The notes under the pieces: generated by a model | Told to the model about the DNA's origin: nothing | Database searches by the model: none | Seen by the model: the letters and a program-made list of their open reading frames with translations, nothing else | Position numbers and translations under genes: made by a program | In this document: in pieces, positions 5,871-49,260 of the stretch | Position numbering within the stretch: the stretch's first letter is position 1 | How the letters are laid out: each line of letters starts with the position of its first letter | Assembly: GCA_016776605.1 (NCBI GenBank) | Contig: JADHTB010000002.1 | Location: 256,842 to 320,841 of the forward strand | DNA: 64,000 bases | Origin: Alphaproteobacteria bacterium | GTDB taxonomy: Bacteria; Pseudomonadota; Alphaproteobacteria; GCA-2731375 | Direction of reading: 5' to 3'

Positions 5871-5973
5871 TAGAGCATTTTCATTCTGAAAATGCTCAGA
5901 TCTTTAGAATTAGAGCAATTTTTCCAATCACTTAGAATCGCTTCGCTATTCTCATTAATTAGGAATTGCTCTA
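5871..5973. repeat. 103-bp palindromic mobile element, copy A1
   Basis: Starts TAGAGC and ends GCTCTA; bounded by CTAG on both sides, so removing it leaves GGCCTAGCGC. Inside are a perfect 11-bp hairpin (GAGCATTTTCA / TGAAAATGCTC) and a second large stem (AGAGCAATT / AATTGCTCT). About 92% identical to the copy at 39875 and about 94% to the inverted copy at 46153. It lies between the suf promoter and the divergent mipA gene. Confidence 0.9.
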
Positions 5974-35984: not shown

Positions 35985-36092
35985 CAAGGGCAATTTTCAA
36001 TTGCTTAAAATCGCTGTCGCAACTTAAGTGATTGGTTCAATTGCTCTTCCTAAAAAGAGTCGGGGGACATTTGGATTAAATCTGCGCTCGAG
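35985..36092. repeat. Decayed copy of the 103-bp element (B type, inverted)
   Basis: Aligns with the reverse complement of the copy at 45793: a shared core ACTTAAGTGATTGGTTCAAT, then TTGCTCT..AAGAGT and a final TGCGCTCGAG in place of TGCGCTCTAG. The ends are mutated (no intact TAGAGC). It fills most of the 148-base gap between ntrC and ntrY, ending 7 bases from the ntrY ATG. Confidence 0.7.
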
Positions 36093-39834: not shown

Positions 39835-39875
39835 ACGAAAGGGTGCGCGAAGGCTTAATGGCCCCCGCGCACCCT
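39835..39875 (-). terminator. Terminator of the beta-propeller gene
   Basis: A 10-bp stem AGGGTGCGCG / CGCGCACCCT (39840-39849 with 39866-39875), 16-base loop, followed on the minus strand by TTTCGTTGTG. It is separated from the gene's stop codon by the 103-bp element, which was probably inserted between stop and terminator. Confidence 0.6.
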
Positions 39876-39977
39876 AGAGTATTTTCATTCTGAAGATGCT
39901 CAGATCTTTAGAATTAGAGCAATTTTTCCAATCACGTAGAACCGCTTCGCGATTCTCATCAATTCGGAACTGCTCTA
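39875..39977. repeat. 103-bp palindromic mobile element, copy A2
   Basis: TAGAGT...CTGCTCTA, flanked as CCCTAG...CTAGTG, so the empty site would read CCCTAGTG. About 92% identical to the copy at 5871 and the same length. On the minus strand its last three bases are the TAG stop codon of the beta-propeller gene. Confidence 0.9.
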
Positions 39978-43174: not shown

Positions 43175-43597
43175 TTATACCGCTGCCCGGCGGCTGTAGG
43201 TCAGGCCGATTTCGTCCAGTTGCGCCTGTTCCAGCTTTGCCGCGAGATGTTGCTGCCGCTTGCCCTCGCGCTCCAGGGCCAGCTCGAATTTTTTGGCTTC
43301 GCGGAATTCACTGGCCATGTTTTCGTTAATTCGTCCCAGGGCCCGGGTCGCTTCGGCAATTGACTCGGCCAAGGTTTCACGCCGCGCTTCAATATGCTGC
43401 GCGTAGATCCCGAAATTGGTCATGGCCAGGTCAGCCTGGCTGACGGCATTTGTCTCCCGCGTCAATTCCTGTTCCAAGGCAGCATCCTGGTTCATGAAAT
43501 TTGTCCGCATGGCCTCAACTTCAATCGCCTTACGCCGATGCTGATCCATGCGAAACCGGTGCATTCGCGCCAGCGCCGCAAAACCGCGAACATTCAT
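43175..43597 (-). CDS. fliJ: FliJ-like flagellar export coiled-coil protein
   Basis: 140 residues, almost entirely charged coiled coil ('[18 protein letters not shown]', '[18 protein letters not shown]', '[18 protein letters not shown]'). The start overlaps the fliI stop by four bases (ATGA). In flagellar systems FliJ sits in the FliI ATPase ring and couples it to FlhA. The FliJ sequence is poorly conserved, so the call rests on shape, length and position after fliI. Confidence 0.75.
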
Positions 43598-44931
43598 TCA
43601 CTCGCCCCCTCTGACAATATATCGGCTAAATGATCGTAGCCATCCAACAGGCTGCAACCCTCGTCCTTATCCTGCCGCAGGAATGCTTCCAAGGCATCGT
43701 GATAGCGGATCGCTTCATCCACCTCCGGGTCAGAGCCGATCCGATAGGCGCCCAAGCGGATCAATTCTTCCATATTGGCATAGGCAGCCATAAGCCGGCG
43801 GGCGTGCTGGACCAGGACGTTTTCCTCCGGCTCGTTACAGGCCGGCATGGTCCGCGACAGGCTACGTAGAATATCGATGGCGGGAAAGCGGCCCCGTTCG
43901 GCGATTTCACGGCTCAAAACGATATGACCGTCCAGTATGCCACGCACCGCATCGGCGATGGGCTCGTTATGATCATCGCCCTCGACAAGTACCGTGAACA
44001 AGCCGGTGATGCCGCCCTTCCCCGTACCCGGCCCGGCCCGCTCCAGCAGGCGCGGCAACTCGGCAAACACCGATGGGGTATAGCCTTTTGACGCCGGCGG
44101 CTCGCCACCAGACAGTCCGATCTCGCGTTGGGCCATGGCAAACCGCGTGACACTGTCCATCATGCACAAGACATCGTGGTCGCAATCGCGGAAGTATTCC
44201 GCCAGTGTCATAGTCATGTAGGCGGCCTGGCGCCGTATCAATGCTGGTTCGTCGGAAGTCGCCACAACGATAACGCTGCGCGCCAGTCCCTCCTCGCCCA
44301 AATTATCCTCAATAAATTCCTGAACCTCACGGCCACGTTCGCCGATCAGGCCGATCACCGAAACATCCGAGGCGGTATAACGGGCCAACATGGACAACAA
44401 TACCGATTTACCCACGCCGCTGCCGGCGAAAATACCCATGCGCTGTCCACGGCACAGGGTGACAAAGGTATTCAACGCCCGCACGCCCAAATCCACCTTG
44501 CCGCGCACACGCTGTCTGGCGTGCGCCTGCGGCGGCTGGCCGCGTAGCGGATAGGCCTGGTTGCCGCGGGGCAACGGCCCTTTGCCATCAATAGGTTCAC
44601 CCATGGCGTTGACGACACGGCCCAGCCAGCGCGCGTTGGGATAGACCATTGGATTATGTTCATCGACCATGGCCCGGCAACCCATGCCAATGCCATCCAA
44701 GGTGCCAAATGGCAGCAATACCGCGGCCTCGTTATGAAAACCGACCACCTCCGCCATCACGGAACGGCCATCGCGGGTCTGTACGGAACAGCGCGAGCCA
44801 ATGCTCAACGCGGCTTGCGCGCCACAGACCTCCAGCGTTAGCCCCCGGACGCCCGCGACACGACCGTACAACCGGTGTGGCGGGATTTGCTCAATTTCGC
44901 TCAGGGCAGTTTGCACGGTACTCTGCGACAC
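43594..44931 (-). CDS. fliI: Flagellar export ATPase FliI
   Basis: 445 residues, GTG start. F1-beta-like ATPase: Walker A '[17 protein letters not shown]', '[16 protein letters not shown]', Walker B-type '[19 protein letters not shown]' and '[20 protein letters not shown]', which mark FliI/type III ATPases. Powers unfolding of flagellar export substrates at the inner membrane. Divergent from ctrA, with CtrA boxes in the 168-base gap. Confidence 0.94.
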
Positions 44932-45034
44932 AATGGATCCAATCAGGATTGATCGGGCCTATATTTGGCTATTCGCCTTAAGTTTCGGTAAAGGCGGTAG
45001 CAAAAAAAGGAAAATATTTACCATGGCGCCGTTG

Positions 45035-45049
45035 TTAACGGTTCGTTAA
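45035..45049. promoter_or_regulatory. CtrA box (full site)
   Basis: TTAA-CGGTTCG-TTAA, a perfect match to the CtrA consensus TTAA-N7-TTAA. It lies 51 bases upstream of ctrA and 104 bases upstream of fliI, so phosphorylated CtrA could regulate itself and flagellar export. Confidence 0.8.
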
Positions 45050-45059
45050 CCTAGCGCGG

Positions 45060-45084
45060 TTAACCTTAGTTAACGATCGGTTAG
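45060..45084. promoter_or_regulatory. Second, overlapping CtrA-type box
   Basis: Three TTAA-like half sites: TTAA (45060-45063), TTAA (45070-45073; 6-base gap) and TTAG (45081-45084; 7-base gap). The second pair has the right spacing with one mismatch. It ends 15 bases before the ctrA ATG, a position suited to autorepression. Confidence 0.55.
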
Positions 45085-45099
45085 ACGGAGATGACGGAC

Positions 45100-45795
45100 A
45101 TGCGGGTTTTACTTATTGAAGACGATACAGCCATGGCGAAAAGCATCGATTTGATGCTGCAGGGCGATGGTTTCAATGTTTACGGCACGGATCTGGGCGA
45201 GGAAGGTTTAGACCTCGGCAAGATCTACGATTACGACATTATAGTGTTGGATCTAAATCTACCTGACATGCACGGTTATGACGTGTTGAAAAAGCTGCGG
45301 GTCGCTAAGGTAGAGACCCCTATATTAATTCTTTCTGGCCTGGCTGAACCTGATGACAAGGTTCGCGGCCTTGGTTTCGGCGCCGACGATTACATGACCA
45401 AACCTTTCGATAAGCGTGAATTGGTGGCGCGTATTCATGCCATCGTCCGCCGCTCCAAGGGGCATTCACAGTCGATCATCAAGACCGGGAAATTGTCGGT
45501 TAATCTTGATAGCCGGGCGGTCGAGGTCGAAGGCCAGCGTTTGCATCTGACCGGCAAGGAATACGCCATGTTGGAGCTGCTCTCCCTGCGCAAGGGAACA
45601 ACGCTGACCAAGGAGATGTTTCTGAATCATCTTTATGGCGGCATGGACGAGCCGGAGTTGAAGATCATCGACGTCTTCATTTGCAAGCTACGCAAAAAGC
45701 TGGCCAATGCGACGGGTGGCGAACATTACATCGAGACCGTGTGGGGGCGCGGTTATGTCTTGCGCGACCCACCCGCCGAAGAAGTGGCAGCCTAG
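45100..45795 (+). CDS. ctrA: Cell-cycle response regulator CtrA
   Basis: 231 residues, the CtrA length. Receiver domain ('[20 protein letters not shown]', D51 in '[14 protein letters not shown]', '[20 protein letters not shown]') and OmpR-type winged helix ('[20 protein letters not shown]', '[14 protein letters not shown]', '[15 protein letters not shown]'). Controls motility and, in some species, cell-cycle genes. MRVLL at 45100 is used, with GGAG nine bases upstream; an ATG three codons earlier is possible. The TAG stop is the first three bases of a mobile element. Confidence 0.97.
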
Positions 45796-45895
45796 AGCGC
45801 ATTCGAAGAAAATGCGCTCAGACTCTTAAAAATAGAGCAATTGAACCAATCACTTAAGTCGCGTGAGCGACTCCAATTAATTGAAAATTGCTCTA
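45793..45895. repeat. 103-bp palindromic mobile element, copy B1
   Basis: TAGAGC...GCTCTA with CTAG at both junctions (GCCTAG / CTAGGCC), so the empty site reads GCAGCCTAGGCC. Contains the hairpins GAGCGCATT / AATGCGCTC and AGTCGCGTGAGCGACT. About 89% identical to the interrupted copy at 46091. Its first three bases are the ctrA stop codon. Confidence 0.9.
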
Positions 45896-45955
45896 GGCCA
45901 CCAAGGTAGCGGCAACACCCCTACCAGGTAGGCATGAAATTACCGAAAACGTCTG

Positions 45956-45978
45956 GCGGCCGCTTTTAGAGCGGCCGC
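45956..45978. terminator. GC-rich hairpin between ctrA and cheR
   Basis: A 9-bp perfect stem (GCGGCCGCT / AGCGGCCGC) with a 5-base loop. It could stop transcription from both convergent sides (TATTCGTTT on plus, CAGACGTTTT on minus). The T runs are poor, so this is tentative. The remaining unique sequence of 45896-46090 shows no gene. Confidence 0.4.
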
Positions 45979-46090
45979 TATTCGTTTGCGCTGTGCATTT
46001 GAAAAGGCTGGATTGAAACCCGCGCCGCCGGCAAGGTACTGCCAGGGTCGCCCGTCCGGTATGCAATTGGGATGGAAAAGCGCGTCAGCC

Positions 46091-46295
46091 TAGAGCGCAT
46101 TCGAAGAATATGCGCTAAGACTCTTAAAAATAGAGTTATTGAACCATTCACCTAGAGCAATTCCGAATTAATGAGAATCGCGAAGCGATTCTAAGTGATT
46201 GGAAAAAATTGCTCTAATTATAGAGATCTGAGCATTTTCAGAGTGAAAATGCTCTAGGTCGCGAGAGCGACTCAAATTAATTGAGAATGGCTCTA
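46091..46295. repeat. 103-bp element, copy B2, split by a nested copy
   Basis: Left part 46091-46154 and right part 46257-46295 join to exactly 103 bases and align to the copy at 45793 (about 89% identity). The interruption is the A-type element at 46153-46256, inserted at a CTAG with the TA duplicated. On the minus strand the right end (CTA, 46293-46295) is the stop codon of cheR. Confidence 0.9.
46153..46256. repeat. Nested mobile element, copy A3 (inverted)
   Basis: 104 bases, TAGAGC...GCTCTA, about 94% identical to the reverse complement of the copy at 5871 (one extra A). It sits inside the B2 element; removing it with one TA restores a 103-base B element carrying CCTAGG. This shows that A elements moved after B2 was in place. 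Confidence 0.92.
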
Positions 46296-47153
46296 ACCGG
46301 CGACGGACTGCAGGCTGTTCAGTTTCGGCGTCGCCGGTGCCGCGGTAGCCATTCCATAGACACCACGTTGGCCGGGAACGGGTTGGAAAACATCCGATAT
46401 GCCCAGGACCGTCTCGGCCGCTCCCATGAACAGACAGCCATCTTTGGCCAGAATACCAGACATGGCCGCCAAGACTTGGGCCTTGGTGGGTTGATCGAAA
46501 TAGATCAACACGTTGCGGCAGAAAATAATGTCAAAGGTGCCCAGCGATTTCAAATCTTTCAGTAAATTGAATTCCTTATAGGAAACCATGGCACGGATAG
46601 CAGAATCGATTTGCCACAATTCATTGACCTGGGTAAAATATTTCATCAAATATTTGACAGGCAGGCCCCGCTGAACTTCAAACTGGGAGTAGATACCGAC
46701 CTTGGCCTTCTCCAGAACTTCCTGCGAAATATCCGTGCCCACGATCTCTATCCGCCAACCGGCCAGTTTCGGCGCCATCTCGCGCAAAATCATTGCCAGG
46801 CTATAGGCTTCCTGGCCGGTGGAGCAGGCCGCGCTCCAAATACGCAGGCTTTTCTTAGCGGCGCGGTCCGCCAACAGATTCGGCAGAATCGCATTTTCGA
46901 ACGTTTCAAATGGCTTTGCATCACGAAAGAAAAATGACTCGTTGGTGGTCATTGCCTCGGTGATATCATGCAGCAACGGTTCGGACCGCTTCAACCGCAC
47001 CTGCGCCACGAGTTCATCCAGGTTGGCTATATTATTCTTTTTAGCGACCGGGTTCAGGCGGCTTTCCAACAAATAGGTTTTTTCCGGACCAATGGACAAT
47101 CCAGAGCGCTCCTTGAGGATACCGGCCAATAAGGCAAAATCATCTGGTGTCAT
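46293..47153 (-). CDS. cheR: Chemotaxis methyltransferase CheR
   Basis: 286 residues. N-terminal helical CheR domain and SAM-dependent methyltransferase domain ('NESFFFRD', 'RIWSAACSTGQEAYSLAMIL', 'EIVGTDISQEVLEKAKVG', 'IIFCRNVLIYFD'). Adds methyl groups to receptor glutamates. Start overlaps the cheB stop by four bases. The TAG stop codon is contributed by the element at 46091-46295. Confidence 0.95.
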   Translation of the reverse strand: MTPDDFALLAGILKERSGLSIGPEKTYLLESRLNPVAKKNNIANLDELVAQVRLKRSEPLLHDITEAMTTNESFFFRDAKPFETFENAILPNLLADRAAKKSLRIWSAACSTGQEAYSLAMILREMAPKLAGWRIEIVGTDISQEVLEKAKVGIYSQFEVQRGLPVKYLMKYFTQVNELWQIDSAIRAMVSYKEFNLLKDLKSLGTFDIIFCRNVLIYFDQPTKAQVLAAMSGILAKDGCLFMGAAETVLGISDVFQPVPGQRGVYGMATAAPATPKLNSLQSVAG

Positions 47154-48313
47154 AGGCCACCCCCACGTGCAAAGCGAATGACCGAGGACCCGATATCATC
47201 AATGGGCAGCACAGCACTGCATAAACCGCCCGTGGCAACGGCACCGGGCATTCCCCAAACAACGCTGCTGCCTTCATCCTGGGCAATAATCGTACCGCCG
47301 CGTTCCGCGACGCCTTGGCTGCCGCTTAATCCGTCATGCCCCATACCGGTCAAAACCACCGTCAAGACCCGTTCGCCATAGGCGGCCACGGCACTTCGCA
47401 ACATCGGATCAACGGATGGCCGGCAGAAATTTTCCTGAGCGTCCTGGTTCAGCCGCAAAATTTTCCCAGTGGGATTGCTCTCAACCACCATGTGATAGTC
47501 GCCTGGCGCCAGGTATACATGGCCGTCTTGAATTTCCATTTTGTCCGTCGCCTCGACACAATCGACACCGTCTATCCGGTCCAGATGTTGTGCCAGTATC
47601 GTGGTGAAAGTGGCGGGCATATGTTGGGTAATCAGAATTGGCTGCTTCACCTTGCCGCCGATCGCGCCGAATAATTTGAACAAGGCCTGCGGGCCACCCG
47701 TGGAGCTGCCTACGCAAATTATATTTGGGCTTAACTTTCCCGGCTTACGCAGGGCAATGGGCGCGCTGCCGTAAGGGCCGCCTTGGGAGCGGGTATGCAC
47801 CACGCCGCCATTTTGCGATTTGGCGACAGTCCGTGACGCAATGTTGCCGCGCGTCCGCACGGATCTGCCCAGGGCACGGACTTTATCCACCAAGTCCCGG
47901 CGAAAGCCGTCCGCGGAATGCAAATCACCTGATGTCGTCGGCTTGGCAAGATAGTCGGATGCCCCTAGCGCCAGCGCCTTCAAGGCGATGTCCGCATTGC
48001 GTGTGGTCAGGGTTGAAGACATCACTATTTTGCTTCGCGGTGACAATTTCAAAAGTTTTGGTAGTGCCGTGAGGCCGTCCATTTTCGGCATTTCAATGTC
48101 CAGCACCACGACGTCCGGTTTGTGCTCGGCCATTTTTATTTGCGCCGCCTCGCCATCCGTTGCCCAGGCGACCACTTCGATTTCTGGATCTTCCTGGAGC
48201 CAGCGTTTGACCAAGCCGCGGATTACCGCCGAGTCATCGACGACCATCACTTTGATCATGGCAGTATTATCATTGCCCACGGCGACTGCCGCAGGCTTCT
48301 CCGCAACAGCCAT
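47150..48313 (-). CDS. cheB: Chemotaxis methylesterase CheB
   Basis: 387 residues. Receiver domain (D72 in 'VVLDIEMPKMDGL') joined by a linker to the methylesterase domain with catalytic Ser in 'CVGSSTGGPQAL', His in 'ITQHMPATFT' and Asp in 'GMGHDGL'. Demethylates or deamidates receptors for adaptation. The ATG at 48313 overlaps the cheY stop by one base; an in-frame TTG one codon earlier is ignored. Confidence 0.95.
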   Translation of the reverse strand: MAVAEKPAAVAVGNDNTAMIKVMVVDDSAVIRGLVKRWLQEDPEIEVVAWATDGEAAQIKMAEHKPDVVVLDIEMPKMDGLTALPKLLKLSPRSKIVMSSTLTTRNADIALKALALGASDYLAKPTTSGDLHSADGFRRDLVDKVRALGRSVRTRGNIASRTVAKSQNGGVVHTRSQGGPYGSAPIALRKPGKLSPNIICVGSSTGGPQALFKLFGAIGGKVKQPILITQHMPATFTTILAQHLDRIDGVDCVEATDKMEIQDGHVYLAPGDYHMVVESNPTGKILRLNQDAQENFCRPSVDPMLRSAVAAYGERVLTVVLTGMGHDGLSGSQGVAERGGTIIAQDEGSSVVWGMPGAVATGGLCSAVLPIDDIGSSVIRFARGGGL

Positions 48314-48678
48314 CAAAGTAATCCCACCTGAGTGAATTTGGCTTCGATTATTTCCTTGTCAAAGGGCTTCATGATGTACTCGTTCGCGCCGGCCTTCATG
48401 GCCTCGACAATATGAGACATATCGTTTTCGGTCGTGCAGAATACGACGACGGGCGCATCGCCACCTTTGCTCACCCGCAGATGCCGCAAGAAATCGATGC
48501 CATCCATCACGGGCATGTTCCAATCCAGCAATATGGCATCAGGCATTTCCGAAAGGCAGGCATCTAACGCTTCCTGACCGTCCTTGGCTTCGGATATCTC
48601 GAAATCCAGGGTTTCGAGTATTCTGCGCGCCACCATTCGAATGACTTTCGAGTCATCTACGACCAAACAAGATTTCAT
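48313..48678 (-). CDS. cheY: Chemotaxis response regulator CheY
   Basis: 121 residues, a single receiver domain: acidic pocket D8/D9, phosphorylation site D52 in 'ILLDWNMPVMDG', and the conserved 'KPFDKE' lysine region. The phosphorylated form acts on the flagellar switch. 72 bases after cheW, with TGATG coupling to cheB. Confidence 0.94.
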   Translation of the reverse strand: MKSCLVVDDSKVIRMVARRILETLDFEISEAKDGQEALDACLSEMPDAILLDWNMPVMDGIDFLRHLRVSKGGDAPVVVFCTTENDMSHIVEAMKAGANEYIMKPFDKEIIEAKFTQVGLL

Positions 48679-48750
48679 TTTCCACTCCGTCGGTCACGGT
48701 CATAAAGGCGTCAAGGGCTGCGCGCCCACAGGCGTGCGGTTACGTCGGTT

Positions 48751-49260
48751 CTAAGCCGCGACGGCAAGTTTAATGATGTCCAGCAGACGCTGAACCTGTA
48801 GAATTACCAATAGGCGCCCATCAAGGCGGAAGATGCCCTGCGAAATGTCGCGCCAGCGCGGATCCAAGGTCGGCGGGTTGCGCTCGTAATTTAGCATCGG
48901 CACCCGGAGCACTTCGCCAACTTCATCAATCAGCAGACTGTATAATTCACCGTGGTGATCGACCACGATGCTCATGGATTTTTCCCGGTCGGCGGGCTCC
49001 ATCCCAAGGCGCTTGCGTAAATCAATCGCCGTGACGACACGCCCGCGTAGGTTCAAGGAACCGGCGACTTCGGGCGGCGCCAAAGGAATATTCGCCAGAG
49101 ATTGTGGGCCCAGTACATCCTGGACCGATAGGACCGGGATACCGAATAATTGGCCATCAATGATCGCCGTTACAAATTCTTCCGACTCAGCGCCATTCGA
49201 CGGCTCGTCAACCGCATCAAGGGATGGACTGTTCGAATTGCTCGTATCTTGCGCACTCAT
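48751..49260 (-). CDS. cheW: Chemotaxis adaptor CheW
   Basis: 169 residues with one CheW domain ('FVTAIIDGQLFGIPVLSVQD', 'LNLRGRVVTAIDLRKRLG', 'LLIDEVGEVLRVP'). Couples receptors to CheA. About 25 extra residues precede the domain (Ser/Asn/Glu-rich). Overlaps the cheA stop by four bases. Confidence 0.94.
   Translation of the reverse strand: MSAQDTSNSNSPSLDAVDEPSNGAESEEFVTAIIDGQLFGIPVLSVQDVLGPQSLANIPLAPPEVAGSLNLRGRVVTAIDLRKRLGMEPADREKSMSIVVDHHGELYSLLIDEVGEVLRVPMLNYERNPPTLDPRWRDISQGIFRLDGRLLVILQVQRLLDIIKLAVAA

Follow-up and report, generated by a model that had tools for sequence, protein, structure and literature searches.

A nested 103-bp mobile repeat with two hairpins in a marine alphaproteobacterial genus and its likeness to CIR and Bru-RS

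Overview

The stretch of 64,000 nucleotides analysed here (the window) belongs to a marine alphaproteobacterial assembly of 4.6 Mb in 44 contigs, 93% complete (G000), and carries several copies of a 103-bp repeat. Our main reading, to which we give a probability of about 60%, is that this repeat is a non-autonomous mobile element of the CIR/Bru-RS type, moved in trans, with an IS630-family enzyme as the best candidate. The family is short, repeated, non-coding and bounded by terminal inverted repeats, the traits by which bacterial miniature inverted-repeat elements (MITEs) are recognised. Its mobility is supported by occupied sites that are species-specific and whose orthologues in related genomes are empty. 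In the mechanism that we propose, a trans-acting transposase would recognise the GAGC...GCTC ends and would insert the element at (C/T)TA|G, doubling the TA.

The repeats of the window and the adjoining genes

The copies are of two types, A and B, and one A-type copy interrupts a B-type copy at 46,091 to 46,295. This composite lies in a region (43594-49260) which we take to be one cluster of ORFs reading as fliI, ctrA, cheR, cheB, cheY and cheW. The features discussed below are the following:

5871..5973, minus strand: A-type element, CTAG site
35987..36090, plus strand: degenerate B-type copy (72%)
39875..39977, minus strand: A-type element (91%), CTAG site
45091..45795, plus strand: ctrA-like response regulator ORF, with its TAG stop within the border of the B element
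45793..45895, minus strand: intact B-type element; its first TAG (plus strand) terminates the ctrA-like ORF
46091..46152, minus strand: outer B-type element, right-hand part (GCGC...GCTCTA end), 62 nt, broken after CAC-C
46153..46154: TA repeat, left side of the inner element
46153..46256, plus strand: inner A-type element with TA at each end, 94% identical to the A reference used
46175..46191: two GANTC sites (GAATC..GATTC) in the inner A copy, on either side of the hairpin 1 loop
46255..46295, minus strand: outer B-type element, left-hand part, 41 nt, making 103 nt together with 46091-46152
46255..46256: TA repeat, right side of the inner element, and the sole TA in the restored outer element
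46293..47153, minus strand: cheR-like ORF, with its TAG stop within the border of the composite

The motif TAGAGCN{80,105}GCTCTA has three matches in the window and none in 100 shuffles. Five copies are clear, and the counts given for them in the preliminary description agree with ours: all five are bordered by TA, and four of them have C-TA..TA-G on both sides, and the outer copy of the composite is bordered by CTAG at one end but by CTAA at its other end. When the whole window was searched against Rfam at gathering thresholds, a tRNA was the sole match.

Subfamilies, copy number and range

A and reverse-complemented B are 78% identical, so that they represent two subfamilies of one family, and it follows that the inner copy sits in the opposite orientation to the outer one. 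The further copies that had been proposed as a check are numerous, since a pattern with exact ends has 126 matches in the own 4.6-Mb assembly compared with 12 for a reversed control. Sequence queries of the same assembly, with the best 40 candidates scored for each, gave at least 43 matches for A and at least 44 for B. A profile HMM detected 174 copies in about 1.0 Mb of own sequence, a sample picked largely around known copies and thus no basis for an estimate of density. These comprise 30 partial and 144 full-length copies (78 A, 61 B and 5 mixed), of which 124 are exactly 103 bp long, with ends that mostly read TAGAGC..GCTCTA. With regard to autonomous long copies, no transposase start was found at 19 of the 30 partial copies within the stretch viewed, at most 120 bp to the right.

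Some copies depart from the simple arrangement. Tandem arrays are present at C31:107526-107830, where B copies are separated by AG spacers, and at C5:4072-4275, where A copies share a TA. In addition, 62-bp copies that contain no more than the first hairpin between TA ends occur at L134:19040-19101 and L147:10653-10714, one of them being an A/B chimera.

Outside this assembly, the A query matched 11 of 61 genomes, that is, all 11 of the genus and none of the 50 beyond it. A covariance model, run under strict filters, matched three of 190 genomes of the class, a set that includes the own genome and one congener (G007); the three were these two and the distant G048.

Empty orthologous sites

The comparison with relatives, which had likewise been suggested as a check, revealed empty sites at several places. 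The A copy C37:105190 is absent from all seven congeners in which both flanks were matched in one locus (three of ten could not be scored), and the adjacent gene has the same stop codon in these seven. The B copy C37:108361 is absent from five of six scorable congeners (four of ten being unscorable), and in the sixth, G003, an A-like copy takes its place. At the cheR-like gene, the orthologous stop codon was without an abutting element in all four loci inspected (L123-L126, cheR at least 81% identical). The stop site of ctrA is empty in L125, the sole one of these loci where ctrA was found; the window's ctrA-like ORF shares 98% amino acid identity with the ORF of L125, and 80% with that of L128. 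The view that the elements are repeated and non-autonomous is supported, and their sites are empty in relatives.

Locus L210 harbours, 3' of the orthologue of the gene left of C37:105190 and at the stop codon that bears the A copy in the own genome, a 34-bp palindrome (TAGACT..AGTCTA) between CTAG ends, which is perhaps another miniature element.

An account by vertical inheritance, in which fixed structural repeats would have been passed on without recent mobility, could appeal to the occurrence of the family in all 11 genomes of the genus. It could also appeal to a decayed B-like stretch at L124:5044-5085 (E 3e-6), located about 180 bp after cheR, in the same order and on the same strand as the B copy that borders the end of ctrA in the window; this stretch may be the orthologue of the B copy at 45793, the insertion then being shared by descent. 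However, the occupied sites vary between species, the same gene end bears different insertions in different species, and one copy is located inside another. As a general account, vertical inheritance is already contradicted by the empty sites, and we regard it as very improbable.

Target site and stop codons

Copies sit at (C/T)TA|G and mostly have TA on either side; the site is very often a TAG stop codon, which is left intact. The preference for CTAG around TA ends that was described for the window holds across the family, strongly in A and more weakly in B. In the own A copies, the outer base is C on the left in 65 of 78 and G on the right in 69 of 78, a symmetric pattern (13 versus 9 departures). 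In the 61 own B copies, the left base is C in 31, T in 23, A in 4 and G in 3, whereas the right base is G in 58; with copies treated as independent, the asymmetry of departures (29 versus 2) has a p value of 4.6e-7. In relatives (72 unique of 74 copies), the B-like copies show this asymmetry again (14 versus 1 departures), and the A-like copies do so less distinctly (9 versus 3, p 0.15). Such an orientation-dependent preference of B is unexpected for a symmetric TA target and counts against our main reading.

Both terminal TAs are preserved in 68 of 78 A and 33 of 61 B copies; a border dinucleotide other than TA is seen on one side in 23 of the 61 B copies and on both sides in five, which also weighs against the main reading. 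A model with a coupling dinucleotide, as for a recombinase, was considered for the B copies with one non-TA border; decay may explain C37:108361, whose own flank seems to have lost about 10 bp compared with G007, and the model may apply to the others.

Regarding what is duplicated, the inner element of the composite has a TA at each end, where the outer element, once restored, has just one. From these ends and the empty sites combined, we infer that insertion duplicates TA, no single empty site fixing every base: at the scored empty sites the native stops are TAA or TAG, and the gain of TA cannot be told there from that of TAG. A 4-bp duplication of CTAG is ruled out by the 24 of 144 copies in which TTAG on the left is paired with CTAG on the right.

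Among 189 ends of ORFs of at least 150 codons near copies, called mechanically and in part spurious, 63 fall exactly in the boundary TAG, 7 further in and 119 earlier. A special specificity for stop codons was considered as well, and much of the pattern is explained by the availability of targets: in 0.86 Mb, 51 of the 151 CTAG sites outside ORFs are stop codons and 100 are intergenic, so that the placement at gene ends is largely what the target offers. As the element supplies the G after TA, the TAG stop codon survives insertion. Gene ends would then be harmless landing sites, and insertions within genes would be purged.

The nested composite

The dissection of the composite given in the preliminary description was reproduced: excising the inner copy (46153-46256) and one TA leaves exactly 103 nt, and the restored junction is CCTAGG, the sequence reading ACC-TA-GGT. 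Aligned with the intact B copy at 45793-45895, the first part of the restored outer element is 91% identical over 69 nt and the second 88% over 41 nt; at the position of the restored junction the intact copy reads ACTTAAGT.

The same description treated the nested copy as a local insertion event, which now appears doubtful. A query of the own assembly with the 205-bp composite yielded 315 candidates; the best 40 were scored, and at least three of these are long matches. The whole of 46091-46295 is one of these at least three B::A::B composites. Rejoining the flanks around the 144 full copies produced three near-complete outer elements, one partial one and one tandem artefact. In all three composites, A lies at the identical internal position and is oriented against B. 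At that position most other B copies have TTAA, whereas the outer copies of the composites have CTAG. The loop variant AGAGTG of the inner element is found in only four of 78 A copies, three of which are those of the composites. The flanks of the composites, about 1.5 kb on each side, share no similarity. Since the composites have the site, the orientation and a rare variant in common, the nesting is probably older. On these sequence comparisons, the B::A::B arrangement probably arose once and then spread: an A copy would have been inserted into a B copy in which CTAG had replaced the inner TTAA, and the composite of about 205 bp thus formed would have reached at least three loci.

Alternatively, A copies could have been inserted independently at the same hot site of B, or gene conversion among B copies could have generated the composites, an explanation that is possible but that we find unlikely. 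Gene conversion would carry over the insertion point, the orientation and the variants as well. Ordinary copies are the nearest, alone or in a tie, to all three inner elements and to two of the three outer ones; taken overall, the inner elements are not most closely related to one another. Outside the composites, one of 61 full-length B copies, the solitary C10:71050 (79% identical), has CCTAGG at the insertion place, so that an empty target exists. A second type of nesting is seen at C11:13745, where A lies within an internal TAGAGC of a shortened B-like copy, which indicates that nesting has occurred more than once. Against independent insertion, it would require the 1-in-61 CCTAGG variant, the same orientation and the 4-in-78 loop variant three times over. 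A single origin followed by spread is the history that we prefer as the simplest.

Hairpins and GANTC sites

The 103 bp, TA ends included, begin with a long hairpin of about 62 nt, which a short linker joins to a second one of about 25 nt, each hairpin being bounded by GAGC...GCTC. The A and B consensus sequences fold accordingly, with z-scores of -7.3 and -6.7, and none of 200 shuffles was as stable as either of them. Covariation was analysed in 36 copies from 11 genomes, hand-picked from 218 full copies (144 own and 74 from relatives), with a consensus structure that omits the apical part of hairpin 1. Seven of its 18 pairs have changed on both sides, all of them in hairpin 2, and the covariation score is 0.273, versus 0.129 for shuffles and at most 0.076 for slid controls; one of five measures, pair types, does not surpass the shuffles. 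Compensated pairs in a hairpin could also stem from replication errors that correct palindromes. Compensation is not needed by a simple MITE that moves as double-stranded DNA, and this too counts against our main reading.

The apical part of hairpin 1 carries GANTC in 77 of 78 A, 46 of 61 B and all five mixed copies, as well as in 51 of the 74 copies of relatives, and B copies have a GANTC in the linker as well. The number of sites per copy is 1.6 to 2.4, compared with 0.37 in shuffles; the genome as a whole has 1.1 per kb.

Candidate mobilising enzymes

IS630 prefers CTAG as a target and duplicates TA. The preliminary description assigned the elements to the IS630 type, and this assignment has held in part: loci with the DDE_3 domain and TAGAGC ends exist in congeners, but the own assembly G000 has no match to the DDE_3 profile (PF13358), although at 93% completeness and in 44 contigs it may lack a gene that the genome has. 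DDE_3 is present in nine of the 11 genomes of the genus and absent from the own genome and G003, both of which carry the family. Several of the congeners' DDE_3 loci have TAGAGC ends. At L103, a 1052-bp DDE_3 element occupies a CTAG site, and its left end agrees with the left end of A at 11 of the 14 bases after TAGAGC; of the other IS ends compared past TAGAGC, two agree at 10 of 14 and seven at 6 to 8 of 14, seven of the ten ends having been picked for starting with TAGAGC. From these similarities a link to IS630 is plausible, and an enzyme of that family would be the best candidate mover, although none was found in the present assembly.

A different route would be mobilisation as a single strand by an HUH enzyme of the IS200/IS605 or RAYT type, which would recognise the hairpins. 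The TA repeat would then be merely apparent: the enzyme would target YTAG on the left, and the CTAG at the right end would belong to the element as its cleavage site. The two stable hairpins, the second of them compensated, would suit such an enzyme, as would the orientation-dependent flanks of B in the own genome and in relatives, and Y1_Tnp genes exist in the own genome and in nine of the 11 genomes of the genus. However, G003 and G006 carry the family and have no Y1_Tnp match, the flanks of A are symmetric, and 12 Y1_Tnp loci (L091-L102) are without a family copy in flanks that extend to at most about 1.5 kb; two longer own stretches have clear copies no nearer to the gene than about 2.4 kb (L269) and 9 kb (L270). 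The own Y1 transposase gene of L101 is moreover flanked by a different perfect palindrome. On balance, we hold mobilisation by an HUH enzyme to be improbable.

The palindromes beside the latter gene (L101:1119-1910) are perfect over 26-29 bp (GGGGACACAATACTTATAT) and are likely that gene's own REP-like repeat.

A third group of enzymes to be weighed is the IS5 family, whose IS427/IS1031-like subgroup duplicates TA or CTAG and has ends starting with GAG, and to which family IS711 of Brucella belongs. The ends of the present elements begin with GAGC after the TA. According to PMC2266754, IS711 reportedly favours Bru-RS repeats as sites and appears to insert at YTAR with duplication of the TA. 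Searched with profile PF13340 alone, the own genome has no match, whereas matches occur in seven of the 11 genomes of the genus; at none of 11 PF13340 loci is the gene enclosed by a TAGAGC..GCTCTA pair, although at L280 a family-like copy lies on one side. A duplication of CTAG is also unfit for the 24 copies with TTAG on the left mentioned above. Mobilisation by an IS5-family enzyme seems to us most doubtful, and IS630-mediated movement in trans would be the best candidate.

Comparison with known repeats

CIR are the CcrM-associated intergenic repeats of Caulobacter (Chen and Shapiro 2003, as reviewed in PMC2229807). According to the summary in this 2007 review, they are intergenic, about 110 bp long, made of two arms and a linker, with TA termini and a GANTC near the hairpin loop, and the mechanism of their mobility needs more information. 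A passage of a 2024 review (PMC10969869) discusses them among MITEs. Compared with CIR as there described, the present family is equally alphaproteobacterial and resembles them in its two hairpin arms and linker, its similar length, its TA ends and the GANTC beside the loop. The kinship is one of described layout. Nested copies and empty sites are observed in the present family, and TA stands at either end of its elements; for CIR, the review's account calls for more information on the mechanism of mobility.

The same length is found for Bru-RS of Brucella, which measures 103-105 bp (as given in the relevant part of PMC2267715), and the family is like it palindromic, intergenic and alphaproteobacterial, judging by description only. 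Bru-RS is known as a site favoured by IS711 (PMC2266754). By described layout, the present family may be placed as a further member of the CIR/Bru-RS kind of MITE.

RUP of Streptococcus pneumoniae is a 107-bp element with terminal inverted repeats highly similar to those of IS630-Spn1, as summarised in PMC2229807. Our family is like RUP, as outlined there, in size, copy number, insertion at TA and the presumed action of an IS630-family enzyme in trans; it differs in that no resident IS630 was found, the resemblance to IS630 ends of congeners being short. REPIN/RAYT systems consist of small, high-copy hairpin pairs. The family shares these three traits, but no copy lies beside the Y1_Tnp genes examined, a TA repeat is present, and the hairpins are asymmetric.

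A literature search over titles and the beginnings of abstracts of top-ranked hits, with few subscription journals covered, returned no publication on this family or on a mobile nested CIR.

Implications

A broader and speculative view, to which we would assign a low probability, is that repeats of the CIR/Bru-RS type form one superfamily of mobile elements throughout the alphaproteobacteria, with two hairpins and GANTC methylation sites. As part of this joint claim, they would insert at YTA|G in one orientation only, in a reaction that recognises the hairpins and is not plainly that of IS630, and their composites would move as units. A hint in this direction may come from the sequence of G048, which belongs to another family and contains at L283:1501-1626 a 126-bp multi-copy repeat with the same two GAGC..GCTC hairpins, joined by a linker that has GANTC; its 82 match rows include many self-inverted duplicates.

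The nested copies, the empty sites and the target rule make the mobility of CIR-type repeats testable. Furthermore, GANTC-bearing hairpins that occur genus-wide, many of them at gene ends, have a bearing on CcrM methylation and on regulation at the 3' ends of genes.
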